NCBI GenBank assembly: GCA_013140715.1
Contig: JABFSG010000024.1
Coordinates: 1 to 35,979 of the forward strand
Length of the DNA stretch: 35,979 bases
Reading direction: 5' to 3'
Origin: Nitrospiraceae bacterium
GTDB taxonomy: Bacteria > Nitrospirota > Nitrospiria > Nitrospirales > Nitrospiraceae
Positions 7,613 through 31,071 of the stretch are shown piece after piece. A model generated the notes under the pieces. It made no database searches. It was not told the DNA's origin and worked only from the letters and a program-made list of their open reading frames with translations. Numbering within the stretch: position 1 is the first letter of the stretch; each line of letters begins with the position of its first letter. A program made the translations under genes and the position numbers.

Positions 7613-7649
7613 GCATCCATTCCGATTCCATCGTAATCAAAAGCGATCC
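7613..7649 (+). promoter_or_regulatory. Phased GAATC/GATTC operator, site A (predicted enhancer)
   Basis: Half-sites GCATC (7613), GATTC (7624), TAATC (7634) and GATCC (7645) alternate in orientation at 11, 10 and 11 bp. Together they make two GAATC-N6-GATTC-like dyads two helical turns apart. This is the most degenerate of four copies and lies 121 bp upstream of the GG of sigma-54 promoter A, the normal place for an enhancer bound by an NtrC-type activator. Confidence 0.6.
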
Positions 7650-7769
7650 AGTCCTGACTCCGCATTCTTACCGACAGGGCAATCTCCTCACACCAATCAC
7701 ATGCGCCTAGCTCAGACAAATCAGACGGTTAGCGCAAACAGTTCGTGATGTTTTCACGCACAAACAATC

Positions 7770-7785
7770 TGGCATATCACTTGCT
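7770..7785 (+). promoter_or_regulatory. Sigma-54 promoter A
   Basis: TGGCATA-TCAC-TTGCT: GG at 7771-7772, ten bases, GC at 7783-7784. This is a near-consensus -24/-12 element (TGGCACG-N4-TTGCW). Transcription should begin near 7796, 33 bases before the ATG at 7829. Confidence 0.8.
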
Positions 7786-7828
7786 GAGAGATGGTCACTA
7801 GCAAGGATCTTACAGCAGGGAGGAAATT

Positions 7829-7921
7829 ATGATGGACGTGGCCTTTCCCATTACATTCTTCGCAATTCCTCTCTTGGCAGTCATCGTCTGCTTCGTCGTA
7901 ACCTGGATTTGGGGAGACTGA
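7829..7921 (+). CDS. Small single-pass membrane protein (30 aa), sigma-54 driven
   Basis: An ORF of 30 codons preceded by GGGAGGAA (7818-7825) at ideal distance from ATG, and 33 bases downstream of the predicted sigma-54 start site. The product is almost entirely one hydrophobic helix (FAIPLLAVIVCFVVTWIW) with an acidic end (GD), so it should span the inner membrane. No family is recognised; such tiny proteins often accompany larger membrane complexes. Adding one G to the GGGG run at 7911-7914 would extend the frame into a charged tail (LIWRDEREKRAAQ), but that tail is dispersed repeat sequence also found near 9170, so I keep the short form. Confidence 0.6.
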   Translation: MMDVAFPITFFAIPLLAVIVCFVVTWIWGD

Positions 7922-8098
7922 TCTGGCGAGACGAGCGTGAAAAGCGAGCTGCGCAAGAGCTCGAGATTCGAAGCTCAGAATTCGAAGTCCCGAAAACTCA
8001 GAACACAGTGCTCAAAACTCAATACTTCCAATCCAGCTCGTCCCGTTCCTCTCATCCATTTCAAATTTCTAATTCATAATTCAGCACCAAGAACTTCT
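7922..8098. repeat. Composite intergenic repeat, copy 1
   Basis: An ordered string: GCGAGAC, then GAAAAGCGAG, GCGCAAGA, TCGAG, TTCGAAG, then AACTCAGAAC words, then TCCCGTTCC and AATTCATAATTCA. The same order is found at 9165-9362, so the two are related. No gene was found here. Confidence 0.6.
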
Positions 8099-8150
8099 AG
8101 TCCTACACCTCGCGCCTTTCGCGCACGTCCCGCTATTCTCGCCGTGAACT

Positions 8151-8187
8151 GAATCCATTCTGATTCAATCAGAATCATATTCGATTC
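8151..8187 (+). promoter_or_regulatory. Phased GAATC/GATTC operator, site B
   Basis: Four exact half-sites: GAATC (8151), GATTC (8162), GAATC (8172), GATTC (8183), at 11, 10 and 11 bp. The two dyads GAATC-N6-GATTC are both perfect. It lies 110 bp upstream of the GG of sigma-54 promoter B. The best-conserved copy in the window. Confidence 0.75.
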
Positions 8188-8296
8188 AGCTCAGAAGTTG
8201 TTTCCGAAGTCACAGCGAGCAAGACGTGTCCCGGCAGCAGGAGAAAAATCCAATAAATCAGCGGATAGGCACCGAAAAGCCCCGAACTGGAACTAT

Positions 8297-8312
8297 CGGC
8301 ACGTTGATTGCT
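8297..8312 (+). promoter_or_regulatory. Sigma-54 promoter B
   Basis: CGGCACG-TTGA-TTGCT: GG at 8298-8299, ten bases, GC at 8310-8311. Only the first T of the consensus is missing. Predicted start near 8323, 34 bases before the ATG at 8357. Confidence 0.8.
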
Positions 8313-8356
8313 GTGAGTGTGAAACATAGCCACCGCAACCAACCTTGCAGACATAC

Positions 8357-8845
8357 ATGATGAATTCTGCTCTCCTCTCAATCAGTGTCGCGCTGTTATG
8401 GTCACTGGTCGTGGCCAACCCAGGCAATGCAGCCCAGACCGAGCGGAGGCAGGATATACCCAATCTAATGGCGGCAGAAACGAACAGAACAGCGGTGGCA
8501 CCAGCCATACAGGTATCGAATCCGGCAAATCCTTGCGCCCTGGCCGGAAAGGGTGGGACAAGAGCGCTCTGTGGGAACCGTGGCCTGCTCGACTCAGGAA
8601 CAATCGCGCCGGAGAAGTCTCAATACCTGAGCGCAGTCATCATCACAACAGTGATCATCATGCTGATCGTACTGGCTGTGTTAGCGGTATTGTCTCTCGC
8701 CCTGATCCTCTTGGCTTCATGGGCCAGGCGGCTTCCACCCAGGCCTGAGGAAAGCGGAGAGGCTAACCTTCCCGATCTTTCATTGCCCGAAGATACTCGA
8801 CCAGAACCTGTATGGACGTATCACCCCACTATGCAAGAACGGTAG
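8357..8845 (+). CDS. Exported membrane protein with C-terminal TM helix (162 aa), sigma-54 driven
   Basis: No family recognised. The N-terminus is a signal peptide (LLSISVALLWSLVV, with a likely cut after GNA near residue 25). Residues 27-88 form a small periplasmic segment with two Cys (60 and 72). A long hydrophobic helix covers 91-121 and is followed by ARR and an acidic, Pro-rich cytoplasmic tail, giving a single-pass topology with the N-terminal domain outside. The start could be 8357 or the adjacent ATG at 8360; a TTG at 8345 is in frame but less likely. No strong Shine-Dalgarno sequence is seen. It is the second gene placed directly behind the operator/sigma-54 module and ends at a hairpin repeat. 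Confidence 0.65.
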   Translation: MMNSALLSISVALLWSLVVANPGNAAQTERRQDIPNLMAAETNRTAVAPAIQVSNPANPCALAGKGGTRALCGNRGLLDSGTIAPEKSQYLSAVIITTVIIMLIVLAVLAVLSLALILLASWARRLPPRPEESGEANLPDLSLPEDTRPEPVWTYHPTMQER

Positions 8846-8847
8846 GG

Positions 8848-8948
8848 GCTGGTTGGTTTGGTCTATTTGGTTTGTCTGGTTGATCTGGTTTGTTTGGTTT
8901 CTTTCGTTTTTTTGGCCAAACAAACCAGATCAACCAAATAAACCAAAT
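8848..8948. terminator. 9-nt-unit hairpin repeat, copy 8
   Basis: The arms GGTTGATCTGGTTTGTTTGG and its exact complement CCAAACAAACCAGATCAACC pair perfectly over 20 nt, with further imperfect pairing outside. It begins three bases after the stop of the 162-aa gene. This is the strongest hairpin of the series and a plausible terminator. Confidence 0.6.
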
Positions 8949-9164
8949 TCTATCCGTCGCGGCGAGATAGGAAACATGCCCCAAGATATTGAGCCTAGTC
9001 CATACCCCCAAAAGATCTGTTGCAATAACTATCAAAGAGGTCTAGCTAAGAGCGACCCGTTACGTGCGCATAGATCTTTATCTGCGCAGTGTGACAGATT
9101 TCTCGCACTAGACTTTCAACGGAGCCGGCCATGAATGGCACCTCAGGCTTCCAAGCAGGCTGCG

Positions 9165-9362
9165 GAAGACTACGCCGCGCGAGACTGGCGGGAAAAGCGA
9201 GACGCGCAAGAATTCGAGTTCGAAGGCTGAAGACCGAAGAACGAAAACTCAGAACCCAGAACTCAGCACGGGCTTCATTCCTATCCGTCCCGCCCATTCC
9301 ACATTCCTCATTCATAACTCATCACTCACAACTCAGAACTCAAAACTCAAAACTCAAAACTT
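9165..9362. repeat. Composite intergenic repeat, copy 2
   Basis: Same ordered words as 7922-8098 (GCGAGAC, GAAAAGCGAG, GCGCAAGA, TTCGAG, then AACTCAGAAC words and ATTCATAACTCATCACTCAC). It occupies much of the 650-base gap between 8949 and 9595. I see no convincing gene, promoter or operator in the remainder of that gap. Confidence 0.6.
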
Positions 9363-9595
9363 CAGATCCCGCACCCCTAACCATGCCTATCAGTTCCTGC
9401 ACAAGCAATGGCATCGACTCGGGTTAAGCTCCTGGCACGTTCTCTCTGCTCACGATCTCATCACTCGCATCACAGGCAGCAGCACACGCGAGGAAAGGTT
9501 CTTAGTGCCGCTCCTTTCCCAACAATCTCAACTCTCCACGCAATCGCGCATGATCACTCGTACGGACTAATTAATAGATGGAAGAATGAGCCAAC

Positions 9596-12181
9596 ATGCC
9601 TTTCATTCTAAGCCTAAGAAAATGTTTCAGACTACTTCAACATGCCCAACGATTTCTTGAACGTCCTCTGACCAGGCGCGCGATTTTCAGATCTAGCATT
9701 GCTTCAATCGTCAGTGCTCTAACTCTAACTTACGTGAAGAGTTATGCGGACGTGACGGTTCCTGGCACGCACCCCAACGGCCATGGAATTCTTTTGGCCG
9801 ATTTTTGGAGAAGACTTCCACCAACTATCCATACGAACGACGGCATCCAACGCACACTGGACCAAAGCCGTCTATTGCTCACATTCGTGGGTAAGCTCAA
9901 TTTGGTCGAGGTTCAGCTGCTACTAGAGCAAGCCGACCACGATCTGCGCGTAGAAGATGTCGGTAAGGGCAACTTACTGCACAAGCATAAACGCCAGGGG
10001 TTCAAAGTAAACCACACGCCAAATCAAGTATGGGTACGAACTCAAAGCAAGAACCCAATTAGTGATCAAACAGTCACGGCGATAGACCAGGTATTCAGCT
10101 CAAACCAAACGCCCGTTAGCTGGGTCGGGCCGGCTTACCGGTATTCCGGAACGAGAGACCAAGTTGGCGTGGTATGCGTATTGCCGAATGTGATTTCAAT
10201 CCTTCCAGGACAAGGCATCGATTCGACTGGTCTTGACACTGATTTTCGCAAGGAATTTAATCTGGTGTTGGCTAAGAAACTGACTCAATATTTGGCAGGA
10301 TTTCGTTACTATTATATCCCGACGACTGTGCTACTCCGTCCCACTCAATTATCCATTTATGACATCCAACAACGGCTCTCCAAGGACCCAAAATTTAAAC
10401 CTCTCGTGGCTCAGGCAAATTTTGACTTTCTGCCGCTTATCTCACCAGCTCAGGCATCATTCGAACCTAGCGATCCGCTCTATCAAAATTCTGGACAATG
10501 GAACCTTGTCAAGATAGGGGCTATCGGAGGGTGGAATAGCGGAGCCATTCCAATTCTTGGAGAAACAGTCGTCGTCGCCGTGATCGATGATTCAGGGGTT
10601 GAGTATTTCCATGAAGACTTTGCTCCAGTAAACGAGTCATTCGTGCAAGGAGCGACATTTTCTGGTTCTAGCGACCCTCCTGACATTAATGAGACGCCCC
10701 TTGATCAACCAGGGGCAGGAGGACGTAGCGATTCTGGATTCCACGGAACAGCCTGTGCCGGGATCATAGCAGCGCGATATAACATGACGGGAATAGCCGG
10801 ACTTGCCGGAGGCTGCCAGCTCATGTCCTTACGCGTCTGGGGATATCAATCGGTTCTCGTTGCTGCCGCCATCAACTATGCTTCCGGAGTAGGTGCGGGT
10901 ACCACAGTCGGAACAAGAAGCTCTACCCCTCAGGCGAACGTCATCAGTATGAGTTTCGTCGATGATCCGATCTCGCTGGACCCTACCACCGGTATTGGCC
11001 CTTTGGAGAGTGCCGAAATAAGGACCGCTTTATCCAAGGCATTTGACGACCGCAAGGTCGTGTTATGCGGAGCAACGGGAGATTCGGGTCAGACGCCACC
11101 CTACTACCCAGCTGCAGATCCCCATGTCATCGCGTGTGGAGCTTCGAATACATTGGACAATCGAGTTATATCGACCTGGCAGTCTGCCTACGGAGGACAG
11201 CTTTCTGTTGTCGCTCCCGGTATAGACATTCCCACCACCGACCTGACAGGAATCAATGGCAGAAGCCCTAATAACTACTCCCCTACCTTCTGGGGGACGT
11301 CAGCTGCTACACCCCACGTGGCAGGCTTGGCCGCGCTGTTGATGGTCAAATATTCCTCCCTCAAGGGCAAACCAGATTCCGTCCGAAAGATTATCGAACA
11401 GACTGCCGAAAAGGTCGGTCAGGTGACGTTGGGCTCTTCGACTGCAAGCCTTACGTATAGCGACACGCCGAATAAACTGCATGGCGATTGGAATCAGGAA
11501 ACAGGATACGGTCGCATCAATGTCGATAGGGCGCTGCGCTTTGCCGACATGACCATCAAAAAACACCCAGATGATACAGGTCTTGAACCGTTCACCCCTC
11601 CGAGCTATGACTTTAGCCTGTCGGATCTGGTCGTCAGGACTGCCGAGGATGTAACCTTGGCAAACTTCGATAGCATAAACTCCATTGGCTCGAAGGTACT
11701 CATAACTGGCGTGGACCATTATCTCTACGTCCGGGTCACTAATCTCGGACCAGAAGCGGCGCAGGATGTCACCGTCTCTGTGCGTATTACAAAGAAGCGA
11801 GCGAACCCGTTCACCCTAAACGATTGGACTAATACCACCAGCCCTACGACTCACATTAAATTAGAGAAGCCTGGAGGGGGCGCCCCCTTGTTTCCCCTAG
11901 TCCCGGCAGGGTCCGGGTTTCAGGCGCTGGCGAAATTTCTGATTCCGACAGCTGTTGTCACAACTATCTCGGCATGGATTTCGTCTAGTGAGAGCCCCCG
12001 CGCTTTGGCACAGGTCACATCGCAGAATGACTATGCATTTTCTGAAACAAAGGATTGGACAAGCGGAGATCTGCTCTTGCGAAAAAATAACCTCATACAG
12101 GCGACCTTGTCAGTGGGCTCCGGTAAAACGTCAGGCGACACCACGCCACCAGGCGCGCCATGCAATCTGAGGGTGCACTGA
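9596..12181 (+). CDS. Exported S8 (subtilisin-like) serine peptidase
   Basis: 861 residues. The full catalytic triad is visible: Asp331 in VVAVIDDSGV, His383 in GFHGTACAGIIAA and Ser569 in GTSAATPHVAGLAALL, so it should be an active subtilase. The N-terminus has TRRAIF at 26-31 followed by a hydrophobic stretch ending near KSYA, which could be a Tat-type or a long Sec signal. Residues 50-300 form a large N-terminal region of unknown fold, possibly a propeptide. After the catalytic domain (about 315-650) comes a CARDB-like beta region (YLYVRVTNLGPEAAQDVTV, about 705-725). No membrane anchor at the C-terminus. It heads the gene group that continues with the secreted protein, TpsA/TpsB, CHAT and DUF928 genes. 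Base composition is lower in GC than in the kinase genes, hinting at separate ancestry. Confidence 0.88.
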   Translation: MPFILSLRKCFRLLQHAQRFLERPLTRRAIFRSSIASIVSALTLTYVKSYADVTVPGTHPNGHGILLADFWRRLPPTIHTNDGIQRTLDQSRLLLTFVGKLNLVEVQLLLEQADHDLRVEDVGKGNLLHKHKRQGFKVNHTPNQVWVRTQSKNPISDQTVTAIDQVFSSNQTPVSWVGPAYRYSGTRDQVGVVCVLPNVISILPGQGIDSTGLDTDFRKEFNLVLAKKLTQYLAGFRYYYIPTTVLLRPTQLSIYDIQQRLSKDPKFKPLVAQANFDFLPLISPAQASFEPSDPLYQNSGQWNLVKIGAIGGWNSGAIPILGETVVVAVIDDSGVEYFHEDFAPVNESFVQGATFSGSSDPPDINETPLDQPGAGGRSDSGFHGTACAGIIAARYNMTGIAGLAGGCQLMSLRVWGYQSVLVAAAINYASGVGAGTTVGTRSSTPQANVISMSFVDDPISLDPTTGIGPLESAEIRTALSKAFDDRKVVLCGATGDSGQTPPYYPAADPHVIACGASNTLDNRVISTWQSAYGGQLSVVAPGIDIPTTDLTGINGRSPNNYSPTFWGTSAATPHVAGLAALLMVKYSSLKGKPDSVRKIIEQTAEKVGQVTLGSSTASLTYSDTPNKLHGDWNQETGYGRINVDRALRFADMTIKKHPDDTGLEPFTPPSYDFSLSDLVVRTAEDVTLANFDSINSIGSKVLITGVDHYLYVRVTNLGPEAAQDVTVSVRITKKRANPFTLNDWTNTTSPTTHIKLEKPGGGAPLFPLVPAGSGFQALAKFLIPTAVVTTISAWISSSESPRALAQVTSQNDYAFSETKDWTSGDLLLRKNNLIQATLSVGSGKTSGDTTPPGAPCNLRVH

Positions 12182-12215
12182 ACACAGGACAGCACATAAT
12201 AATGGAGGGCTTTCA

Positions 12216-13127: not shown

Positions 13128-13394
13128 CTTCCAGGAGAACAGCGTCCAGGCAGCAGATTTTCCTACCAATCCGATGCCATAGGGGGGGGGTACCGGCTCG
13201 ATACTCGGCTCGAACCAAGTCAGGTAAGTTAACCCTAGATGAGTAGAAAAAGTATTGGATACCCACGATCCTTCATAGCTTCTATGCTGCGAGTTTGGGC
13301 GAACAAGGCGTGGATAGGCGGTACAGCATTTGTCTTTAAAGAGCGCCGAGAACAAGTTGAGGCCCCCAAGAGCAGACAGTCGAAAGGATTTACC

Positions 13395-16300
13395 ATGACA
13401 AGTCGGCTTATGCTTCTGGGCGTTTCCCGTTTCACATACTCCTACGCTACCCTGCTTATTATCAGCCTTGGCTTGCTGCTTCCATTCTCCGCCAGCACTG
13501 CACGGGCCCAAGCCACACCCCCGATCACTTCATCCGGCTTACATACCCAAATTAGCGATCCTATCGCAGTTGGGGGACGAACTCAGTACGACATCACCGG
13601 CGGCACCAGACCGGACGGAGGATTGAATCTCTTTCACAGCTTTGGCAACTTCAACGTTCCGGACAACAACATCGCGAACTTCCTCAACTCTGGATCAATT
13701 GACCTGCACGGTACCCCGCTCCCTTCAAATTTGCCGACTGCCAACATTCTCGGCCGTGTAACCGAACAGCAGAGTCCGTCGATGATCTTTGGAATGATTC
13801 AGACCAACGGAACGGGTGGGTTCAGTCATGCCAATCTCTTTCTGATGAACCCTCACGGTTTCCTCTTCGGGCCTAATGCCACGCTGAACGTTGACGGAAT
13901 GGTGGCCTTCACCTCAGCAGATTATCTCCGGCTCACTGGTGATGTGCAATTCAACGCGGTGCCTGACGTAGTGGCCGATGCCCTACTGACCGCCGCACCG
14001 ATTGCTGCCTTTGGATTTCTGGGCTCAAACGCGGCCTCGATTGCAATCGAGGGTGGCAATCTAGTAGTCGCTGACGGGAAGACTCAAGCGTTCATAGGCG
14101 GACCCAGTTTTTTTACAACGGACACTGGATCCACGGTTCCCAGCGGAGTGAGCATGTCGGGAGGGAGCCTGTCGGCGCCGAATGGGCTGATTTATATGGC
14201 GACAGTAACATCACCCGGCGAGGTCTCAGTACCAACCCTATCTGGTGCTCAACTAGGAAACCCTGGGTCGCCATCTTCCAATCCAGCTGTCATCCAGATT
14301 CGGAGCGGAGAGTTTGTGATGGACCACGCATCTCTCAACGCGACCAACGCCACGAATACGGCCCAATCTGCGATCGAAATAACCGTTCAAGGCGCGATGA
14401 CGCTTATGAATGCCAGTTCTGTTTCGTCTGAAGCTTTAGCTTCTGGACACGGAAGTAATGTGCATATAACTGCCCAAGCTCTCCAGGTAGATGGGTCGTC
14501 CATAAAAAGCACAACAACGGCTGGTGGGCACGGCGGCGACATCTCTATCGCCGGTCAAACCATCGGCCTTGTCAATGGAGGTCAGGTTGCCAGTACCGCG
14601 AAGGGTGTCGGAGCTGGCGGTACGATCAGCATCACCGATACGGAGTCGGTCACTATTTCAGGATTCGACAGTACGTTTACGCTCACAGGCATACCCAATC
14701 CAGATGGATTTGTGACCTCTGGGGCATTCACCCTCAGTTCATCGAGCGGGGCTGGCGGCAACATCACGATCACCGCACCAATAGTATCCCTTGAAGGTGG
14801 AGGTTCGCTTGTTACTTCCACAACGGGATCGGAGCAAGGAGGACACTTGACCGTGACAAGCGATCAAGTGACCCTCACTAATGGCGGGATAATCCGCAGC
14901 CTGAGCGGAGAAACAGATTCTATTACTCTAGAACATAGAGGCTCCGGACACGGAGGGGACATTAGTATTACCGCCACAGAATCAGTTCTTATGACAGGGG
15001 GGAGCCTCGATGTCTTCACTGCAAGCGGCATCTTTAGCGACACCGTCGGAAACGGAAAGGGTGGCGATCTCAGCATCACAGCCCCCAATGTGGATGTAGA
15101 GAACTCCGCTTTCCTCGTTACATCCTCACAAGGGACTGGGACAGCGGGGCACATCACAGTAGAAGCTGCCAACCAACTCAGGGTAACAGGAATAGATGAG
15201 ATCTTCGGTGTTGGCGCGGCAATTTCATCCGATGCCCGAGGAGGTCCGCTCGATGGAGACGGCAGTGGATCGATTGATATCCACACAGCAGCCCTCAGGG
15301 TAGAAGATGGAGGATCCATCGGAACCACTACGAATACTTCACATACAGCAGGCGATATCACCATCACTGGAGACAATTTCACCATTCACCGTGGAGCCAT
15401 CAGTTCCGGCAGCAGCCAGTCCGGCTCAACCGGAACCATTACCCTAAACGCCAGTGAAACGATCACAATCTCCGAACCGTTTGATCCCAATTTTCCTATC
15501 GTCGTTGCAAACATCCAGGAGGGATCGGGAGGTCAAGGGGACATCGTGATCCAAGCAAGAGAGATCTTCATAACTAACGGTGCCGAAGTGTTCAGTTCGA
15601 GCGAGGGAGCGGGAACTGGAAAGGTGACTCTCGAAGCGACTGACTCTATCACCGTATCCACAAACGGAGTTGTGCGAGCATTCGGAGGGACAACCGCGGA
15701 TCGACCGGCGATTGAACTCCGAGCTTCTGACATCAGACTTGACCAAGGGTTGCTCTCGAGTCGAACTAACAATGATTTTGATGGCGGCTCAGTTACCCTG
15801 AATGCGACCGCTGGGAACCTTACTCTTGCTAACGGAAGTCACATTTTGACAAATACTCAATTCAGTAGTGGGAATGCGGGCTCCATAACCGCGAGCGCCA
15901 CGGATTCGATTGTACTCTCCGGGGGATCGACCATGGAAAGCAGTAGTTCCTCAGTCGCCACTGGTAATGGCGGAGCCGTAACATTGATCGCCGGCAATCA
16001 AGTGAATTTGTCCGGAACAGGAACAGCGCTACAGAGCACCACGGGCGGCAGCGGCAATGGCGGCAACATTAGCGTCACTGCTGGACAATCATTGATGATG
16101 AACAACGGATCCAGTATCTCTGCCAGCAGCACCGGCGCTGGCAACGCAGGCGATATCAATATCACCGCAACCAACGGACTCACGATGCACAACAGTTCGA
16201 TCACAACACAAGTGATCCATACCGGCACCGGCGGTAGTGCTGGCGGCGGCAACATCAAAGTGACGACATCCGATTCAGCCACGATATATATGAGCAACAG

Positions 16301-16853
16301 CACAATCAGCGCCTCGGTCTCCGACGGTCCCGGCGGCGGCGGGAATATCTCAATTGATCCGCAATTCGTGATCCTGCAAAACAGCAATATTCTGGCTCAG
16401 GCTGCCCAGGGTTCCGGCGGTACGATCAAGATCATCGCAGGCTTGTTTCTGCCGGATGCTAACAGTGTCGTCAATGCGGATTCCGGAACTGGCGTGAATG
16501 GCACTGTGACGATTCAATCGCCGAACGCCCCAGCCAGCGGCCAGATCCAGCCATTGGGACAAACACCGTTGCAAGCGACGTCGCTGCTCAACCAAAGCTG
16601 TGCAGCATTGGCCGGTGGGGAGTTCAGCAGCTTCACCGTGGCGGGACGGGGCAGCTTGCCGACAGAACCAGGTGGCTGGCTCTCAAGTCCATTAGCGACA
16701 CTGAATGCAGGTACGGGGCTCGCGGCGAGGGGCGAGGGGGAAAGACTCGTGGCGCAAGGCGAAGCCCCCCTACTCTCCTTGCGGCAGATCGCGCCGGCCG
16801 GTTTCCTGACCCAGACCTTTGCAGTGGATAGGTCCGCAGGCTGTCAATCATGA
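13395..16853 (+). CDS. TpsA-type filamentous haemagglutinin exoprotein
   Basis: 1152 residues from the ATG at 13395, chosen for AAAGGA just upstream and for giving a normal signal peptide (ATLLIISLGLLLPFSASTARAQA). The TPS secretion domain follows at about 45-190, with NLFHSFGNFNVPDNNIANFLN-like residues and NLFLMNPHGFLFGPNATLNV, the classical haemagglutination-activity motifs recognised by a TpsB partner. The middle is a long beta-helix of repeats of the GG-NI-I-A type. The C-terminal segment has one Cys and SSFTVAGRGSLPTEPGGW, the closing motif I associate with cyanobacterial-type TpsA proteins. It should be exported through the TpsB encoded next (ATGA overlap). The in-frame extension to 13239 lacks a ribosome-binding site. 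The preceding gap carries a run of nine G at 13182-13190. Confidence 0.88.
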   Translation: MTSRLMLLGVSRFTYSYATLLIISLGLLLPFSASTARAQATPPITSSGLHTQISDPIAVGGRTQYDITGGTRPDGGLNLFHSFGNFNVPDNNIANFLNSGSIDLHGTPLPSNLPTANILGRVTEQQSPSMIFGMIQTNGTGGFSHANLFLMNPHGFLFGPNATLNVDGMVAFTSADYLRLTGDVQFNAVPDVVADALLTAAPIAAFGFLGSNAASIAIEGGNLVVADGKTQAFIGGPSFFTTDTGSTVPSGVSMSGGSLSAPNGLIYMATVTSPGEVSVPTLSGAQLGNPGSPSSNPAVIQIRSGEFVMDHASLNATNATNTAQSAIEITVQGAMTLMNASSVSSEALASGHGSNVHITAQALQVDGSSIKSTTTAGGHGGDISIAGQTIGLVNGGQVASTAKGVGAGGTISITDTESVTISGFDSTFTLTGIPNPDGFVTSGAFTLSSSSGAGGNITITAPIVSLEGGGSLVTSTTGSEQGGHLTVTSDQVTLTNGGIIRSLSGETDSITLEHRGSGHGGDISITATESVLMTGGSLDVFTASGIFSDTVGNGKGGDLSITAPNVDVENSAFLVTSSQGTGTAGHITVEAANQLRVTGIDEIFGVGAAISSDARGGPLDGDGSGSIDIHTAALRVEDGGSIGTTTNTSHTAGDITITGDNFTIHRGAISSGSSQSGSTGTITLNASETITISEPFDPNFPIVVANIQEGSGGQGDIVIQAREIFITNGAEVFSSSEGAGTGKVTLEATDSITVSTNGVVRAFGGTTADRPAIELRASDIRLDQGLLSSRTNNDFDGGSVTLNATAGNLTLANGSHILTNTQFSSGNAGSITASATDSIVLSGGSTMESSSSSVATGNGGAVTLIAGNQVNLSGTGTALQSTTGGSGNGGNISVTAGQSLMMNNGSSISASSTGAGNAGDINITATNGLTMHNSSITTQVIHTGTGGSAGGGNIKVTTSDSATIYMSNSTISASVSDGPGGGGNISIDPQFVILQNSNILAQAAQGSGGTIKIIAGLFLPDANSVVNADSGTGVNGTVTIQSPNAPASGQIQPLGQTPLQATSLLNQSCAALAGGEFSSFTVAGRGSLPTEPGGWLSSPLATLNAGTGLAARGEGERLVAQGEAPLLSLRQIAPAGFLTQTFAVDRSAGCQS

Positions 16854-18640
16854 CCCATCGCGCTGGGAAACCAGCGCCTCCCCGCTTCCTTTGGTTTGTG
16901 AGACAACTTTACTTCTGCATCGGTCTCGCCATGACCATGCTGCTGACAGCCACTTCAGTCTTCGCACAGACTGCCGTCGACCCCTTGGGGCGCTCCGGTG
17001 AACCGCCAGGCCCCCTGAAGGAAGAGTTTCAGCGGCCCTTACCACCTCCAAGCCCCGTGCTTCCCATCGTGCCGCTCCCGCCTGAAACAGGAGTGCCGAT
17101 ACAGCCTGGTACGGTACGGGTGTTTGTCAAAGACGTGCTTGTAATTGGCAACACGGTTTTTTCTGATGCCGAGATTTCCGAGGTGACTTCCTCTTTTAAG
17201 GACCGGGTATTGCTGACCGAGGATCTCGAACGGCTCCGGCTGGCCCTGACGCTCCTCTACGTCAACAGGGGCTACCTGACCTCCGGCGCAATCATCCCCG
17301 ATCAGGATGTCCTCTCTGGTGTCATCACGGTGCAGATCATCGAAGGGAGGTTGACCAGGATCGACGTAGAAGGGAACCGCTGGTTCAGATCGTCCTACCT
17401 GCGCGACCGCCTCTCTCTCGGTATCCGCACACCTGTGACGCTCGACCCCTTGCAGGAACAGCTAAAACTCTTGCAGCAGGATCGCCGGATCGAACGCATC
17501 AACGCGCAACTTCAGCCCGGCGATCAGAAAGGCGACAGCCTGTTGCATGTGCGGGTGAAGGACAAGAATCCGTTTCATACCTCAATGGAGATTAACAACT
17601 ATTCGACGCCGCTGGTTGGAGAAATCCGGGGGACCGGCACACTGACCCACGACAATCTAACAGGGAATGGGGATCCCCTCAGCCTCAGATACGGCCAGTC
17701 GAGTGGTGCCTTTCCCATCGTAGACGCTTCCTATGCTCTCCCCTTCAACCGATATGGGACGACCTTTTCGCCCTACTACCGGCGCTATGACTTTAAACTC
17801 ATTGAGCCGCCCTTTGATTCCCTGAATATCAGAACCAATACGGAGATCATCGGCATGAGTCTTCGCCATCCGATTTATAAGACCGTGACCGATGAGGTAG
17901 CTCTTTCAATCATCGGAGAACATCTGTTTAGCCAGCGATTTGTGTTCGGGAATGTCCCCTTTGACTCTTTTCCCGGTTTTCAAAACGGTGCAGCGACTGT
18001 ATCTGCGCTCCGCTTCGCACAGGACTGGACCCATCGCACGCTCGATACCGTACTGGCTGTCCGCTCGCGATTCAGCGTAGGCCTGAATGTCCTGGGCGCA
18101 ACCATAAATGCGAACCCCAACACACCAGACGGGCAATTCTTTTCCTGGTTGGGTCAGGTGCAGGCAATCAAACAGTTCGGTGAAAATTTGCTCGATATGC
18201 AGCTCCTCGGTCGCATGGATCTGCAATTCACCAACTCGCCTTTGTTTCCGCTTGAGCAGGTCGCCCTCGGCGGCCGGTACACTGTACGAGGCTACCGTCA
18301 AGTGACAACCCTGCGAGATAACTCGTTCAACGCCTCGGTGGAGCCTCGCTTCCCATTGTTTCGTTGGGGAAACGGCGAGCCGATGATTCAATTCGCTCCC
18401 TTCATCGACCTCGGGCATGGATGGAGCCTCGGCGATAATCGCCCTGGCCCAACGGATCCTTTGAGCAGTTTCCCCAACACGCTCGCCAGCGTGGGTGTCG
18501 GTCTCCGGTGGAATATTCTTCCGAACGACAGAGCCAGTTTTGAAGTCTATTGGGGGCAACAATTGAACCATGTGCCTCGCATCAGCAACACAATTCAGGA
18601 TCATGGAGTGCATTTGGGCTTTGTTGCGAACCTCTTCTGA
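16850..18640 (+). CDS. TpsB-type two-partner secretion outer-membrane transporter (ShlB/FhaC family)
   Basis: 596 residues. A signal peptide ends near SVFAQ (residue 40), then comes a Pro-rich linker (PLPPPSPVLPIVPLPPE). Two POTRA domains lie at about 91-165 (VRVFVKDVLVIGNTVFSDAEI) and 168-240. The rest (about 245-596) is an Omp85-type 16-strand barrel with VRGY at 479-482, the conserved loop-6 motif, and an aromatic C-terminus (VANLF) for insertion by the BAM complex. Its POTRA domains should bind the TPS domain of the upstream TpsA and thread it across the outer membrane. The start overlaps the tpsA stop by four bases, implying coupled translation. Length and domain order are normal for the family. 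Confidence 0.9.
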   Translation: MTHRAGKPAPPRFLWFVRQLYFCIGLAMTMLLTATSVFAQTAVDPLGRSGEPPGPLKEEFQRPLPPPSPVLPIVPLPPETGVPIQPGTVRVFVKDVLVIGNTVFSDAEISEVTSSFKDRVLLTEDLERLRLALTLLYVNRGYLTSGAIIPDQDVLSGVITVQIIEGRLTRIDVEGNRWFRSSYLRDRLSLGIRTPVTLDPLQEQLKLLQQDRRIERINAQLQPGDQKGDSLLHVRVKDKNPFHTSMEINNYSTPLVGEIRGTGTLTHDNLTGNGDPLSLRYGQSSGAFPIVDASYALPFNRYGTTFSPYYRRYDFKLIEPPFDSLNIRTNTEIIGMSLRHPIYKTVTDEVALSIIGEHLFSQRFVFGNVPFDSFPGFQNGAATVSALRFAQDWTHRTLDTVLAVRSRFSVGLNVLGATINANPNTPDGQFFSWLGQVQAIKQFGENLLDMQLLGRMDLQFTNSPLFPLEQVALGGRYTVRGYRQVTTLRDNSFNASVEPRFPLFRWGNGEPMIQFAPFIDLGHGWSLGDNRPGPTDPLSSFPNTLASVGVGLRWNILPNDRASFEVYWGQQLNHVPRISNTIQDHGVHLGFVANLF

Positions 18641-18662
18641 GCAGGCGCGAGGCGGACAAGAA

Positions 18663-18786
18663 TGTTCTGAGTTTTGAGTTCTGGGTTCTGAGTTGGCATA
18701 TTTGGAATGAGAAACGATGACGGAGAAATTGTGAATTCTGAGCGCAAACCCAAAACTCAGCACTCAGAACCCAGAACTCAGAACAT
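18663..18786. repeat. AACTCAGAAC-class inverted repeat
   Basis: The left arm TGTTCTGAGTTTTGAGTTC and the right arm AACCCAGAACTCAGAACA face each other about 50 nt apart, between tpsB and the CHAT gene. The right arm ends at the CHAT start codon (ATG at 18785). It might terminate or attenuate transcription between the two genes. Confidence 0.65.
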
Positions 18787-21094
18787 GAGAGATCTTCTGC
18801 TCAGACTTTCTCTGACAGTCATCCTCGCAGCTGGGCTCGTGATGGCCCAAACCTCCGCGACGGTTTCCGCCGTCGAGCCTTCTACGGACAGTTTGATGCA
18901 GCAGGGGCTTCAGGCCTACCAACGGGGATCCTTCGATCAGGCGCTGGACGCTTGGAAGCAGGCGGCAGACCTCTTTGAGCGAGCCGGTAAGATCGGAGAA
19001 GAGAGCCTAGCCCTGGAGCAGGCAGCGCAGGCGTCTGAATCGCTGGGCCAGGTCAGTCAGGCCCTGCAGCAACTGGAACTGGCTCTGACCCTGGCGCAAC
19101 AAACAGGAGACCGTGCGCGGATCGCCACTATAATGGAGAGTCTCGGCCGTACCTACCTGGCGGCGCACAAACCTGACGCGGCAGTGCAGTACCTGACCCA
19201 ATCCTTGGCTATGGCACAAGCCGAGAACGATCGACGCCTCATCGCTGCCATTCACAACGATCTCGGCATCACCTACGCCGCTCAACAGCATGACACGGAT
19301 GCGCTGGCTTCCTTCGTCACCAGCGCGCAAGAAGCCCAAGCGGTCGGAGATCGACCTCTGACTGTGCGGGCTTCCATCAATGCGGCCCGCATGGCCTTGA
19401 AGCTCAATCAACCGGATCACGCGCGGAACTGGCTGGACCGCTCACTCGATGCCCTGAACAATTTCGAGCCTTCGCACGACAAGGCCATGAATCTCATTCA
19501 GGTGGGGCTGGGCTACCAGAAACTCCGTGCCTCAATGCCTGCCATGAACGCACCCCTGCTGTTGCGCGCGGCCGGCGTCCTGTTGGAAGCGGCGGCTGTG
19601 TCACAGCACGTCGGAGACGAGAGAATGCGCTCCTATGCGGAGGGCTACCTCGCTCACCTTTATGAAACCGAACATCGCTACGACGAATCGCTGCACCTGA
19701 CGAGACGCGCGGTCTTCTCCGCCCAATCGGCCAACGCGCCGGAGTCGCTCTTCCGCTGGCAGTGGCAACTTGGCCGTCTGCTGGCAGCGACAGGCAAGCT
19801 GGATGAGGCCATCGCCTCCTACGGCCATGCCACCACGACCCTGCGCCCCATCCGCGTAGAAGTCTCCTCTGCATGGGGGGATGATTCATTCGCCGGAGAA
19901 GATTCAGTTCGCCCCCTCTTCTTTGAGCTAGCCGACCTGTTGCTCCATCGCGCCGCTCTGACGGATGACTCGCAAGGAGCCGAGCAGTATCTCCGCCTCG
20001 CGCGCGATGCGATCGAGACCTACAAGGCCACTGAGTTACGGGATTACTTCCGGGACGACTGTGTGGATACGCTCCAAGCGCGGATCACGAAACTGGACCA
20101 GCTGGCAGCCGGAACAGCGGTGGTCTATCCCATCGTCTTTGCCGATCGGTTGGAACTGCTGGTCAGTCTCCCCAATGGGCTGAAACGGTTGTCGATCCCC
20201 GTCTCGTCCGCCACCCTCACACAGGAGGTGCGCGCCTTTCGCAAGACGGTTGAAAAACGAACGACGCGCGAGTATCTCCCCCATGCTCAACAACTCTACG
20301 CCTGGTTGATCCGCCCGCTCGAGCCGGACTTGGCCTCCTTCCGGATCGATACCCTCGTCTTTATCCCGGATGGCCCACTCCGTACTGTGCCGATGGCCGC
20401 GCTCCATGACGGAACCCAGTTCCTCATCGAGAAGTTTGCGGTGGCGACGACACCGGGCTTGAATCTGACCGACCCGAAGCCGATCGATCGAGGCAAAGTT
20501 CGGCTGTTGTCGAGCGGGCTCACGAAAGCCGTTCAAGGATTCCCTTCCCTCCCCTTCGTGGAGGAAGAAATCAATGCCATCCGCACGCTCTACCAAGGGG
20601 ATCAACTCTTGAATGCCGAGTTCTCGACTCCGCGCCTTGAACAGCAGTTACAAGACCAGCTCTATGGCATCTTGCACATTGCCACCCATGGCTGGTTTGC
20701 CTCGGACACAACGCAGTCCTATCTCTTAACCTATAATGGAAAACTCACCATCAATGAGCTGGACCAGTTGGTGGGACTCTTCCGCTATCGAAAAGATCCT
20801 CTGGAACTCTTGACCCTCAGCGCCTGCCAGACCGGCACGGGAGACGACCGTTCGGCGCTCGGCCTAGCCGGTGTGGCGATCAAAGCCGGGGCTCGAAGCG
20901 CCCTTGCGACACTCTGGTTCATCAACGATGAAGCCTCGGCTGCCTTGGTCTCCGAATTCTACCGGCAATTACGAAATCCCGCCCGGTCGAAGGCACAGGC
21001 TTTGCGTCAAGCACAGCTGAAGCTCTTGGCAGATCGGGTCTATGAACATCCGGCCTATTGGTCGCCGTTTCTGTTGCTGAATAACTGGCTGTAG
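18785..21094 (+). CDS. Exported TPR-CHAT protein (caspase-like peptidase)
   Basis: 769 residues. The start at 18785 gives a clear signal peptide (LLLRLSLTVILAAGLVMAQT); the ORF is open to 18707 but that part is translated repeat. Residues 35-230 and 285-360 are TPR helices (e.g. LMQQGLQAYQRGSFDQALDA, ALQQLELALTLAQQTGD). The CHAT domain covers about 440-769: the presumed catalytic His635 lies in LHIATHGWF and Cys681 in LTLSACQTGTG, both intact, followed by GLAGVAIKAGARSALATLW. CHAT domains belong to the caspase/separase clan and cut partner proteins. This one should act outside the cytoplasm, unlike the TPR-CHAT of CRISPR-linked systems. TPR-CHAT next to TpsA/TpsB and DUF928 is an association I know from cyanobacteria; its role is not established. 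Confidence 0.85.
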   Translation: MRDLLLRLSLTVILAAGLVMAQTSATVSAVEPSTDSLMQQGLQAYQRGSFDQALDAWKQAADLFERAGKIGEESLALEQAAQASESLGQVSQALQQLELALTLAQQTGDRARIATIMESLGRTYLAAHKPDAAVQYLTQSLAMAQAENDRRLIAAIHNDLGITYAAQQHDTDALASFVTSAQEAQAVGDRPLTVRASINAARMALKLNQPDHARNWLDRSLDALNNFEPSHDKAMNLIQVGLGYQKLRASMPAMNAPLLLRAAGVLLEAAAVSQHVGDERMRSYAEGYLAHLYETEHRYDESLHLTRRAVFSAQSANAPESLFRWQWQLGRLLAATGKLDEAIASYGHATTTLRPIRVEVSSAWGDDSFAGEDSVRPLFFELADLLLHRAALTDDSQGAEQYLRLARDAIETYKATELRDYFRDDCVDTLQARITKLDQLAAGTAVVYPIVFADRLELLVSLPNGLKRLSIPVSSATLTQEVRAFRKTVEKRTTREYLPHAQQLYAWLIRPLEPDLASFRIDTLVFIPDGPLRTVPMAALHDGTQFLIEKFAVATTPGLNLTDPKPIDRGKVRLLSSGLTKAVQGFPSLPFVEEEINAIRTLYQGDQLLNAEFSTPRLEQQLQDQLYGILHIATHGWFASDTTQSYLLTYNGKLTINELDQLVGLFRYRKDPLELLTLSACQTGTGDDRSALGLAGVAIKAGARSALATLWFINDEASAALVSEFYRQLRNPARSKAQALRQAQLKLLADRVYEHPAYWSPFLLLNNWL

Positions 21095-21264
21095 CAGGAT
21101 GCTGAAAAAGAAAGGAAAGGGTAGCCTGGTCGTCCTCCTGCTCGCAGAGCGCGCACGCTCAGAAGGTGCTCGTTCGATGCGCGCAATCGAGGATCGACCA
21201 GGCTACCCTTAGGGTTATGTGAAAACCGCTGCGGCCTTGCTGGACGAACTTTTTGAGCATCTTG
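21095..21264. repeat. Nested inverted-repeat element, MITE-like
   Basis: The outer arms GATGCTGAAAAAG (21098-21110) and CTTTTTGAGCATC (21249-21261) pair at 12 of 13 positions. An inner perfect 16-nt pair AAGGGTAGCCTGGTCG (21117-21132) and its complement (21195-21210) encloses a GC-rich loop. It starts right after the CHAT stop codon and carries no ORF of note. It resembles dispersed non-autonomous palindromic elements. The rest of the gap to 21530 shows nothing I can support. Confidence 0.65.
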
Positions 21265-21530
21265 GGTCGATTAGGTCTTCATGCCATACGGAGTATTTCG
21301 CGTGTGTTTTTTTTCGCAGACACCGACTTTTCCCGCAGCCTGCGCTGGAGAGGCACTGCTGCATCCACGAGGAAAACACCACAGGCCGTCCGGCCCTACT
21401 AAGGTCATGGCCACTGTGTTACGGTGCGGGGACGTATCGTATAAAACGAATTCGTTGAGGATACGAGCGTAGCGACGAAGAACGTTGCAGCAGAAATACC
21501 GAGGAATAATCTAGGAAGAGGGCCTTACCG

Positions 21531-22283
21531 ATGCGACGCAGCATGTTTCTATTAGCAGGATTGATCTTGAGCGTAGGGCTTTGCGATCCGGCCACGACGC
21601 CGGCAGTCGCGGATCAGCCGGCGGTCTTGCAGCCTGGCGCAACGGATGCTGTCCCGCTTCCCCTCTACCAGCCTCCCAAGAAGCTGACCCCTCGTGCTCG
21701 GGTCGGCGGCGGATTGCGCGGGACAGACGGAAACGATCCCGTGCTGGTCGCCTTAGTGCCTGACCATGTCGGGCTCACCGTGAAGAAGACTCCCGTCCTG
21801 AACTGGTTCCTCTCGAAACCAACGACCTACCCGCTGAAATTTACACTCATCGACATCCGATCGGTCACACCATTACACGAAGGCCCGATTCCCACACCGA
21901 CGCAAGCAGGCATCCAGTCCATCAATCTCAAAGATTGGAATCTTGTACTGGAAGCCGACGTGCAATACCGCTGGTATATTTCCGCGATTCGCAATCCAGA
22001 CTCGCCGTCGCAGGATATTGTGGCAGGCGGTGTCATTGAACGCTGCGAGTTCAGTAACTGCCTCGTGGAAATGCAAGTCGATTTGAGCTGCGACCAGCAA
22101 AGCGTGGTGCGGAATGCCTTGCGGGGTTTTTGGTACGACGCAATGGCCTGCCTCTGTGAATTGATCGACGCGAACCCCTCTGACCAGACACTTCGCAGAC
22201 AACGCGCCGCCCTGTTGAATCAAATCGGCCTTTCCGGGGTGGCGGAGTGGGATCTTCGTTCCATGCAAGGGTCGGCAAAGTAA
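21531..22283 (+). CDS. DUF928-like exported protein (250 aa)
   Basis: The signal peptide is short (MFLLAGLILSVGLCDPATTP with a likely cut near AVA). The mature protein begins with a Pro-rich linker and RVGGGLRGTDG, then VALVPDHVGLTVKKTPVLNW, a beta-rich domain (PLKFTLIDI) and YRWYISAIRNP with VAGGVIERCE. This order matches what I recall of the DUF928 family from cyanobacteria, where it lies next to CHAT and haemagglutinin-type genes. Function is unknown. The C-terminal helical part (WYDAMACLCELIDANPSDQT) resembles the short helical tail of that family. AGGAAGAGG at 21512-21520 supports the ATG. It follows the CHAT gene on the same strand but is separated by the palindromic element, so it may have its own promoter. 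Confidence 0.7.
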   Translation: MRRSMFLLAGLILSVGLCDPATTPAVADQPAVLQPGATDAVPLPLYQPPKKLTPRARVGGGLRGTDGNDPVLVALVPDHVGLTVKKTPVLNWFLSKPTTYPLKFTLIDIRSVTPLHEGPIPTPTQAGIQSINLKDWNLVLEADVQYRWYISAIRNPDSPSQDIVAGGVIERCEFSNCLVEMQVDLSCDQQSVVRNALRGFWYDAMACLCELIDANPSDQTLRRQRAALLNQIGLSGVAEWDLRSMQGSAK

Positions 22284-22329
22284 CCTCATCGACAATACCG
22301 TGAAGCGTATCTCGCAGGAAAGTTTCACG

Positions 22330-22405
22330 TTCCAAGTTGCGAGTTTCTAGTTGATCGGAGGTCTTCTGAAACTAGAAACTAGAAACTAGAAACTAGCAAC
22401 CCGAA
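22330..22405. repeat. AACTAGA tandem repeat with foldback
   Basis: GAGTTTCTAGTT at 22341-22352 faces four tandem AACTAGA units at about 22369-22396. It lies downstream of the DUF928-like gene and may act as its terminator. Confidence 0.55.
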
Positions 22406-22489
22406 ACCCTCATCTCTCTTCTCCCTCTAGTCTTTAACTCAGAACCTCCCTCATCCAACTCACCACTGACTACTTACTACTTCACCAGC

Positions 22490-22527
22490 TAATCCAATTC
22501 GATTCAACGGCGAATCGTTTTCGATTC
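22490..22527 (+). promoter_or_regulatory. Phased GAATC/GATTC operator, site C
   Basis: Half-sites TAATC (22490), GATTC (22501), GAATC (22512), GATTC (22523) at exactly 11, 11 and 11 bp, alternating in orientation. It is followed by ATATG as in site D. It lies 153 bp upstream of the GG of sigma-54 promoter C. Confidence 0.72.
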
Positions 22528-22679
22528 ATATGGACTGCTTCCTCTCCCCATAGGGGCCTACCGACAATGCCCTCCATGACGAGCGTCAGCAACTCGTCAC
22601 CCCCTAAATACGCTTCACGGATGCCAAGAATAGCAAGGTCACCGTCGGACTGGCTCCCAGGATAGGCGCATCTCCGATA

Positions 22680-22695
22680 AGGCACGTGGATTGCT
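22680..22695 (+). promoter_or_regulatory. Sigma-54 promoter C
   Basis: AGGCACG-TGGA-TTGCT: GG at 22681-22682, ten bases, GC at 22693-22694. Predicted start near 22706, 210 bases before the first supported start codon at 22916, leaving a long leader. Confidence 0.8.
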
Positions 22696-22705
22696 TGATA
22701 TTCGA

Positions 22706-22860
22706 TTACTTCATGGATGCCGGCGCGAATCGTTCGAACCGTTCCCCGGCGCCTTTCTTTACATGCAGCACCTCCCCGACGGACTGCAACCATGTCGACG
22801 CTGGCCGTCCTTGCAAAAACCCCCTGCGAACGCTGGTCGCGAACCTCTCGCATCGCCTTT
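22706..22860 (+). ncRNA. Putative structured leader RNA, copy C
   Basis: This leader aligns without gaps with the leader behind promoter D (23648 onward) at roughly 70% identity by hand count. Blocks such as CATGGATGCC (CATGGATGCC in both), CCGTTCCCCGG and CTCCCCGACGG are shared. Mismatches fall about equally on the three codon positions, so I do not think an ORF here explains the conservation. The outer stem seen in copy D is only imperfect here. It could be a riboregulator or an sRNA released from the 5' end. Confidence 0.4.
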
Positions 22861-22915
22861 CATAAAACGTTCAGGCAAACCGATGCCCGACCTCGCAATA
22901 TAAGGAGACGCAGCC

Positions 22916-23110
22916 ATGACAACTTCAAACATGGTATTGGCGTTACTGAGTGGATTGGTCTGGATCATGATCTGGATCATCTGGGTGATCATTCTCGACA
23001 TCTTTGGTAGCAACCATCGCAGCCGCGACCGGCAGAACAAGAAGGCTGCGCAGGAGCACGCTGATGAGTACGAAACGCGCGACTCTCATCGCATCAGTCA
23101 ACGATTGTGA
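22916..23110 (+). CDS. Small membrane protein with charged tail (64 aa), sigma-54 driven
   Basis: Unknown family. The strong AAGGAGA at 22902-22908 fixes the ATG. The first 30 residues are one hydrophobic, Trp-rich helix (LVWIMIWIIWVIILDIF). The remaining half is highly charged (RSRDRQNKKAAQEHADEYE) and probably cytoplasmic and helical. Size, topology and the ILDIFG end of the helix resemble the 50-aa protein at 23961 (IDILLGLLG), so the two may be distant paralogues. It is the only plausible gene behind promoter C, following a leader of about 210 nt. Confidence 0.65.
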   Translation: MTTSNMVLALLSGLVWIMIWIIWVIILDIFGSNHRSRDRQNKKAAQEHADEYETRDSHRISQRL

Positions 23111-23175
23111 CCTGACAGATGGACGCGACCACCAGGCTGAAGCACAACCATCCTGGCACGCAACGCTGGCAGGAC

Positions 23176-23396
23176 AGGTCGATCTGGTCTACGTGGTCTA
23201 TCTCGTCTATCTGGTGAGTTGGTTCATTTGGTTGATTGCGTTCTTCGAACCGAACCAACTAACAGGGCATTGATACGTGACTGAACCGGACAACATCCGT
23301 CACCCTACTCCATGGCAAAAGGATCATTGGTGTGTCTTCATTGATTTGGTTCGAAGAACAAGTGAAACCAAGCAGGTCAGATGAACCAGATCAACC
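23176..23396. repeat. 9-nt-unit repeat, copies 9 and 10 (separated arms)
   Basis: The left arm at 23176-23262 (TGGTCTACG, TGGTCTATC, TGGTTCATT units) and the right arm at 23338-23396 (GGTTCGAAGAACAAG, then AACCAGATCAACC) can pair across about 75 nt. The arms are more degenerate than elsewhere. No gene is supported between 23111 and 23487. Confidence 0.6.
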
Positions 23397-23487
23397 CGTC
23401 TGCGCGTCTCGCGAGTTTTTCGCTCAGAACCTCCCTCATTCCTCATTCATAATTTCTCATTTCCCCCAAAGCCTCTCGCCGATCGGT

Positions 23488-23525
23488 AGATCAAATTTGA
23501 TTCAGCACTGAATCCTTTTCGATTC
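23488..23525 (+). promoter_or_regulatory. Phased GAATC/GATTC operator, site D
   Basis: Half-sites AGATC (23488, degenerate), GATTC (23499), GAATC (23510), GATTC (23521) at 11, 11 and 11 bp. The last 12 bases TTTTCGATTCATATG-like are the same as in site C. It lies 97 bp upstream of the GG of sigma-54 promoter D. Confidence 0.7.
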
Positions 23526-23621
23526 ATATGAATTGGTCCCACTCTTCTGTCGGAGCTTCTGCTCCGATCCAATTCTTTAGCAAACGTGAGACTGAACCAG
23601 GGCTGATGCTCATTTCTGATG

Positions 23622-23637
23622 AGGCACATGGCTTGCT
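23622..23637 (+). promoter_or_regulatory. Sigma-54 promoter D
   Basis: AGGCACA-TGGC-TTGCT: GG at 23623-23624, ten bases, GC at 23635-23636. Predicted start near 23648. Confidence 0.8.
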
Positions 23638-23647
23638 AGGTATTCGG

Positions 23648-23810
23648 GGCATGCATGGATGCCAGTGCGAGGTGTTCGACCCGTTCCCCGGAAGGGCTTC
23701 TCACGTTCGGCTCCTCCCCGACGGATTGCAAGCACGCCAACGCCAGCCGTACTTGCGAGAAGATCCGGCGAGCGTCGATCTCGAACACCTCGCAACGGCA
23801 TCCATGAATA
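23648..23810 (+). ncRNA. Putative structured leader RNA, copy D
   Basis: The left arm 23654-23679 and the right arm 23781-23806 are complementary over 26 nt with only two internal unpaired positions (CATGGATGCC, two bases, TGCGAGGTGTTCGA against its complement), closing a loop of about 100 nt. The predicted sigma-54 start lies six bases before the stem, so the RNA would begin with it. It is homologous to the leader at 22706. No ORF is conserved between the two. The coding start downstream is at 23961. Confidence 0.45.
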
Positions 23811-23960
23811 GTCCGGGTAGCAGTCAGTCCAAGCAATCCTTCGGTGCCAGACGAAGAAGGTGCGGCCGGATACAAGGCCATCGGTTACCACGGCAACAGG
23901 TACGACTCAAACAGACCCCTCGCCAATGATCGACTCATCGGTACGAATCACAATGCAACC

Positions 23961-27283: not shown

Positions 27284-27316
27284 ATGCCGGTGGGTTCTAC
27301 GTGGAAAGGCGAGAAG

Positions 27317-31064: not shown

Positions 31065-31071
31065 GAACAAC

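Follow-up and report, generated by a model that had tools for sequence, protein, structure and literature searches.

We analysed a 35,979-nucleotide stretch of DNA from a Nitrospiraceae bacterium (contig JABFSG010000024.1 of assembly GCA_013140715.1), hereafter the window, in which four copies of a paired operator, lettered A to D, each precede a sigma-54 promoter element. The operator has the consensus TGAATC-N6-GATTCA, in pairs, and lies among genes for microproteins, TonB-dependent receptors, a two-partner secretion pair and proteases, as well as an operon that ends in a histidine kinase and an NtrC-type response regulator (Table 1). Operators were scored with R1, a sequence-only model built from seven sites.

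Table 1. Positions of the features discussed, in coordinates of the window, and what identifies them.
Feature	Position	Strand	Evidence and remarks
Operator A	7613..7649	+	two dyads, N5 linker, degenerate, 17/20; R1 28.9 bits
Sigma-54 -24/-12 element of A, GGCATATCACTTGC	7771..7784	+	pattern search
30-aa single-helix microprotein gene, MMDVAFPITFFAIPLLAVIVCFVVTWIWGD	7829..7921	+	GGAGG ribosome site
Operator B	8151..8187	+	two perfect dyads, N5 linker, 20/20; R1 39.6 bits
Sigma-54 element of B, GGCACGTTGATTGC	8298..8311	+	pattern search
161-aa protein	8360..8845	+	N-terminal signal-like and internal hydrophobic segment
Subtilase (Peptidase_S8)	9596..12181	+	PF00082
TpsA-like exoprotein, filamentous-haemagglutinin N-terminal domain	13239..16853	+	TIGR01901 over cut-off
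TpsB/ShlB-type outer membrane transporter	16850..18640	+	PF03865, PF08479
TPR-CHAT (caspase-fold protease)	18707..21094	+	PF12770; signal-like N-terminus
DUF928 protein, marker of synteny immediately before the core operator	21531..22283	+	PF06051, synteny
Operator C	22490..22527	+	two dyads, N6 linker, 19/20; R1 43.6 bits
Sigma-54 element of C, GGCACGTGGATTGC	22681..22694	+	pattern search; 153 bp off
64-aa class-1 microprotein	22916..23110	+	AGGAG ribosome site; ~210 nt past predicted start of C
Operator D	23488..23525	+	two dyads, N6 linker, 18/20, degenerate first half-site; R1 41.6 bits
Sigma-54 element of D, GGCACATGGCTTGC	23623..23636	+	pattern search
Dispersed hairpin repeat behind promoter D	23651..23818	+	mobile-element-like; fold z -3.9; outside the regulatory device itself
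50-aa class-1 microprotein, MTQAIMYWGSLIALVGLIWLLAIDILLGLLGHGK...	23961..24113	+	sequence and relatives' matches
TonB-dependent receptor 1	24882..27161	+	profile search
TonB-dependent receptor 2	27284..29380	+	profile search
Response-regulator receiver with PAS domains	29529..31064	+	profile search, synteny
ABC_sub_bind periplasmic binding protein	30983..32086	+	PF04392; kept beside kinase
Histidine kinase (HAMP-GAF-HisKA-HATPase)	32073..34403	+	domain scan, genus profile
NtrC-type response regulator, proposed activator	34506..35945	+	receiver PF00072, AAA+ PF00158, Fis-type helix-turn-helix (HTH) PF02954

All four operators and all four sigma-54 elements lie where an earlier note, made from the letters of the window, had placed them. 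That note ascribed one and the same design to the four sites. The paired-dyad layout does hold throughout, but half-sites are degenerate in A and D: the exact ones number four of four in B, three of four in both C (the first reads TAATC) and D (AGATC), and one of four in A (GCATC/GATTC/TAATC/GATCC). Dyad centres are 21 bp apart in A and B and 22 bp apart in C and D. From the second dyad to the start of the sigma-54 element we measured 121, 110, 153 and 97 bp for A to D, in agreement with the range of 97-153 bp first reported; C is the outlier because of ~56 extra bases visible in an alignment of the four sites. No other paired dyad of at least 17/20 is present in the window, and none arose in 40 first-order Markov copies of it. 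A chance origin of the four operators is excluded.

The operator in the genome and the family

The genome (3.58 Mb in 105 contigs) contains the single dyad GAATC-N6-GATTC at 18 places, compared with 1 for a reversed control, and the exact element GGCAY-N5-TTGC at 89 places, counting both strands. The top forward matches of R1 in this genome at E < 1e-5 are exactly the seven operators from which it was built, six with an exact sigma-54 element after them and a seventh with a weaker one. The regulon proposed earlier as four-membered is accordingly larger and comprises several spacing classes. Two complete operators outside the window were found from the dyad alone. That at C86:12909 is followed at 97 bp by GGCACATGGCTTGC and precedes a gene for a beta-barrel protein (PF13505) and, after it, one for a PEGA protein, whilst that at C68:84418 is followed at 96 bp by GGCACGTGACTTGC and precedes a gene for a putative lipoprotein. 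The chance of meeting the exact element within a 60-bp interval at two of the three outside sites is ~2e-6, taking this genome alone. No exact promoter accompanies the seventh operator, C59:13824; 73-74 bp off, on the opposite side, stands AGGCCTGCAATTTGCT, which has 8 of 11 consensus letters, and the operators of genomes G004, G009 and G010 have TGGCTCGCAATTTGCT at this same distance. Judged by its letters and position, the promoter of C59:13824 is probably a weaker member of a third spacing class. The operator faces a gene with a caspase domain (PF00656) here and a different gene in those other genomes. The caspase-domain (Peptidase_C14) gene behind the weak class-3 promoter, at L007:1784-3556 (- strand), has an N-terminal hydrolase-like part and was not found in the other class-3 loci fetched. 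Single dyads at C21, C25, C29, C31, C42, C51, C59:15598, C88, C95 and C100 were rejected as members, R1 finding no second dyad at them; the C95 dyad gave a weak match (E 0.04) and was not counted.

Within the genus, R1 matched 27 of 32 genomes at E <= 1 and 24 at E < 1e-5. Moreover, 31 of 117 genomes sampled from the order contained matches, all in one family (genera g1, g2, g7 and g9, the last three in addition to this genus). The earlier note had named enrichment of the paired motif with sigma-54 promoters as the test of its proposal, and such enrichment is what we observe. Amongst 75 distinct operators with full flanks, an element lies at 60-130 bp in 52 at a stringency of at least 10/11 and in 65 at one of at least 9/11, as against 1.7% and 3.2%, respectively, of random positions in the same loci (n=4920), and no combined probability is attached to these counts since orthologous sites are not independent observations. 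The distances between operator and promoter fall into tight classes of about 97 bp (94-99 bp, N6 linker), of about 111 and 118 bp (109-112 and 116-122 bp, mostly N5) and of about 74 bp (73-75 bp, N6).

Ordinary dimeric repressors, too, typically bind perfect symmetric dyads, and it could be supposed that the operators bind a repressor or an architectural protein, the sigma-54 elements being served by an activator bound elsewhere. However, repressor operators usually overlap the promoter, whereas those described here lie a fixed 73-122 bp upstream of the -24 element, in tight classes and at dozens of sites, which is what an enhancer needs. Moreover, no other strongly conserved motif was evident between operator and promoter in the four-site alignment, in which no systematic search was made. 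We therefore regard a repressor or architectural role as highly improbable.

A candidate activator and its operon

Sequence components of an enhancer-dependent sigma-54 regulon are present: rpoN (PF04552 at G000:C24:18969, E 1.3e-56), a -24/-12 element of the form GG-N10-GC close to TGGCAC-N5-TTGC, a tandem dyad at fixed distance and an AAA+ activator. The earlier note had envisaged an NtrC-type activator on the dyad pair, which the coupling to sigma-54 supports, and had left the binding protein unnamed; we can now offer the regulator at 34506-35945 as the cognate candidate. It is encoded by the last gene of an operon for an ABC-type binding protein, a histidine kinase and the regulator itself, and a kinase gene adjacent to one for a receiver, AAA+ and Fis-type HTH protein is the arrangement of an NtrC-type two-component system. 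The AAA+ domain matches PF00158 at E 4e-70, with GSFTGA, a variant of the GAFTGA loop, at residue 230 and the Walker A motif GETGTGKE at 183.

This protein is our candidate because its orthologues track the operator and because loci fetched with it carry the operator, as a rule upstream of the operon for binding protein, kinase and regulator. An orthologue, defined within the genus by at least 75% identity and with fragments counted, is present in 22 of 24 strong-operator genomes and in 0 of 8 others (Fisher p 4e-6). When loci were fetched from GTDB genomes by the regulator protein alone, operator and sigma-54 element were found together in 13 of 17 loci over 11 kb (at least 64% identity) and, at the same threshold, in 0 of 49 long loci of paralogues (below 60%; p 1e-10). 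Of the four loci that lacked the pair, L151 has a version of the operator that contains an indel, with a 9/11 promoter. The recognition helix, LQRTYLTKLL, is nearly invariant in orthologues, whilst most paralogues at 50% identity have LQRTYLARLI/L. On these comparisons, the 34506-35945 regulator is most likely the activator that binds the operators.

Several observations weigh against this assignment. For ten of the 75 operators no convincing promoter lies at the expected distance, although two of these, C and G, are accounted for by unusual spacing or a weak element, and the non-independence of orthologous sites applies to the whole set. G004 and G012 carry operators and no detectable regulator orthologue; G012 is 79% complete in ~510 contigs, and G004 has one operator at a contig end and is missing the kinase as well, but genuine absence is possible in both. 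In G010 the single orthologue detected sits outside the cluster, on a separate contig. Lastly, this genome encodes ~27 sigma-54 activator domains, another of which could share the operator. The regulon may thus be real and yet depend on some other NtrC-type protein from elsewhere in the genome, with the cluster regulator a mere neighbour; other Nitrospira genomes do encode a 58%-identical paralogue with nearly the same recognition helix, QRTYLTKLLRQKG (L162). However, counterparts of the closest paralogue within this genome (C27:49976, 54%) occur also in the operator-less G022, G024, G025 and G030, none of the paralogue loci described above carries such an operator, and in the relatives that have the operator it lies upstream of the very operon of the cluster regulator. 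We consider a different activator unlikely. Taken together, the comparisons make it very probable that the operators and sigma-54 elements form a conserved regulon of the Nitrospira family with the 34506-35945 regulator as its activator.

The gene order TpsB, TPR-CHAT, DUF928, operator, TonB receptor and/or PAS regulator, ABC_sub_bind, kinase, regulator is conserved between this genus and N. moscoviensis. In the relatives that have the operator, N. moscoviensis (L157:3716) included, it lies between DUF928 and the genes for binding protein, kinase and regulator. The promoter is 110 bp before the ABC_sub_bind match in L172 and 201 bp before it in L159. A scan of the + strand for terminators from promoter D to the regulator returned only weak sites, at 33668 and 34399. 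Positive autoregulation of the system is likely; it is the simplest reading of the gene order, because an operator stands upstream of the regulator's own operon and only weak terminators intervene. The ABC_sub_bind gene overlaps the kinase gene (30983-34403), a pairing conserved across the family, and no ABC permease was seen in the scanned cluster. It is for these two reasons plausible that the binding protein is a sensor partner of the kinase. At 5342-6781, two consecutive thymidylate-kinase-like genes lie beside an exopolyphosphatase gene, and are next to the regulon in many syntenic genomes.

Predicted target genes

The earlier note stated that a gene for a small membrane protein follows each promoter. 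This is so for A (30 aa), C (64 aa) and D (50 aa), while B precedes a protein of 161 aa; genus-wide, such proteins are a large class of targets, but not every target is one. A microprotein family, MTQExxVxxLLxGLVGLIWxxAxDIL, often stands behind class-1 promoters, and N. moscoviensis has a member too (59 aa). The 50-aa member of the window begins ~310 nt past the predicted start of D and has no obvious ribosome site. Behind class-2 promoters there is a 28-30 aa family, MDxxYAISLGxIPLLAIIICFVVTWIWGD, longer proteins whose beginning is signal-like (MYKNSALLSIGAALL...) or, in L096, the subtilase. The 30-aa microprotein is conserved at the same promoter class in L085, L098, L100, L242 and L243, relatives of the 161-aa protein lie behind the same promoter in L075, L085, L097 and L098, and the subtilases of L096 and L083 lie behind an operator and sigma-54 pair. 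The 30-64 aa products gave no match of weight in NCBIfam.

A structured small RNA, as in LuxO/Qrr or CbrB/CrcZ, could in principle be the product of promoters C, D, E and F in place of microproteins, given that the D leader folds into a long hairpin (z -3.9) and that several relatives have a similar leader start, CATGAATGCC..GCGAGG. However, the D hairpin is a dispersed repeat whose matches lie mostly on contigs unconnected with operators, the C leader shows no folding (z 0.26), and Rfam gave no match. Furthermore, at many same-class promoters the hairpin is absent, and a ribosome site and microprotein follow directly. A small RNA or structured leader at C-F is barely credible and was ruled out on the dispersed repeat, the unfolded C leader and the lack of an Rfam match. 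The ~165-bp repeat has inverted ends, occurs in many genomes of the genus (G013, G005, G021, G011 and others, with up to 19 matches in one) and is probably a miniature mobile element. Copies of it recur immediately after class-1 sigma-54 promoters. A dispersed word, TTCATGAATAATGCGGGTT/CT, present at 10 places in G000 (e.g. C32:17134 and C31:131967), resembles the ends of the repeat and is perhaps the terminal repeat of an insertion sequence.

Nearly all targets are envelope-type products. In addition, the two-partner secretion pair, TPR-CHAT and DUF928 genes at 13239-22283 form a block kept across Nitrospira; a literature search found no paper that pairs the terms for these three.

Proposed mechanism and comparison with known systems

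We propose that the 34506-35945 regulator binds two TGAATC-N6-GATTCA dyads, two helical turns apart, at a distance of 73-122 bp (153 bp in C) ahead of a -24/-12 promoter. Phosphorylation of the regulator would come from the HAMP-GAF histidine kinase encoded next to it, and its AAA+ ATPase would then open the promoter. From gene order, the kinase perhaps reads the neighbouring periplasmic ABC_sub_bind protein. The most conserved operator stands before the operon whose last genes encode binding protein, kinase and activator, and self-activation of the system is therefore probable. Other outputs in the cluster would be the single-helix microproteins, the TonB receptors and the cluster of two-partner secretion, subtilase and TPR-CHAT genes; elsewhere in the genome they would be the beta-barrel protein, the putative lipoprotein and possibly the caspase-domain protein. 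Whilst the sites, their number, spacing and coupling to sigma-54, and their co-occurrence and synteny with the regulator are observed, we infer from sequence the binding of the operator, the activity of the promoters, the autoregulation, the signal and the physiological role.

We further suggest, very tentatively and as a doubtful possibility, that this self-activating two-component and sigma-54 switch controls a surface programme of single-helix microproteins, secreted proteases of the caspase fold (TPR-CHAT and, elsewhere, a caspase-domain protein) and of the subtilisin type, and a two-partner-secreted exoprotein. If true, it would be an undescribed regulated extracellular protease or contact system of nitrite-oxidising, possibly comammox (complete ammonia-oxidising), Nitrospira, organisms that drive nitrite oxidation and comammox. 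With an operator found across the genus and a candidate for its activator, a cluster hitherto anonymous (binding protein, kinase, activator, protease and two-partner secretion) becomes a circuit open to test. It also marks out, as its outputs, two or more families of 30-60 aa membrane proteins that lack annotation.

The literature searched contained no published Nitrospira operator or regulon of this kind, nothing specific on sigma-54 regulons of Nitrospira, and no relevant title or abstract in which the operator word occurs together with sigma-54. We regard the regulon as new and its mechanism as one of a known kind: it works like an NtrC-type sigma-54 enhancer system. With NtrBC and the glnA enhancer it shares a dyad pair on one helix face upstream of a -24/-12 promoter, a candidate activator of receiver, AAA+ and Fis-type HTH domains, and, probably, autoregulation. 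It differs in its recognition word, in its envelope targets and in the spacing of its dyads, which are two turns apart whereas NtrC dyads are about three helical turns apart. The window regulator scores 407.9 bits against the model of NtrC proper (TIGR01818; cut-off 558.6) and 398.4 against the AtoC equivalog (cut-off 714), below both, and its likeness to AtoC-like activators is one of architecture. A variant operator, GTATC-N6-GATAA/GTATC-N6-GATTC, was seen in the Nitrospirales NPIRA01 and NPIRA02 (L204:2204-2350 and L205:5751-5896, - strand coordinates), in loci fetched by a 48-49% paralogue of the regulator; after 95-96 bp comes a sigma-54 element, together with a conserved 109-aa protein. 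This may represent a sister regulon that has diverged, of use in studies of specificity.

The envelope-related targets agree with the 'bacterial exterior' as a general theme of sigma-54 (Francke et al. 2011, PMC3162934). In the PrsK/PrsR regulon, proteobacterial PEP-CTERM genes have a TTTACA motif upstream (Haft et al. 2006, PMC1569441). Membership of the PEP-CTERM/PrsR system was ruled out by a score of 396.3 bits against TIGR02915 (PrsR; cut-off 502.6) and by the different motif, and no PEP-CTERM model matched among the window proteins scanned. The two nonetheless have much in common: in each a conserved motif precedes a sigma-54 element, the targets are scattered and encode envelope products, and the phyletic profile of the motif matches that of a kinase and NtrC-type regulator pair. 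The same comparative logic led to both. By these analogies, and with a paired TGAATC-N6-GATTCA in Nitrospirota in place of TTTACA, PrsK/PrsR appears to be the closest precedent in kind for the regulon described here.

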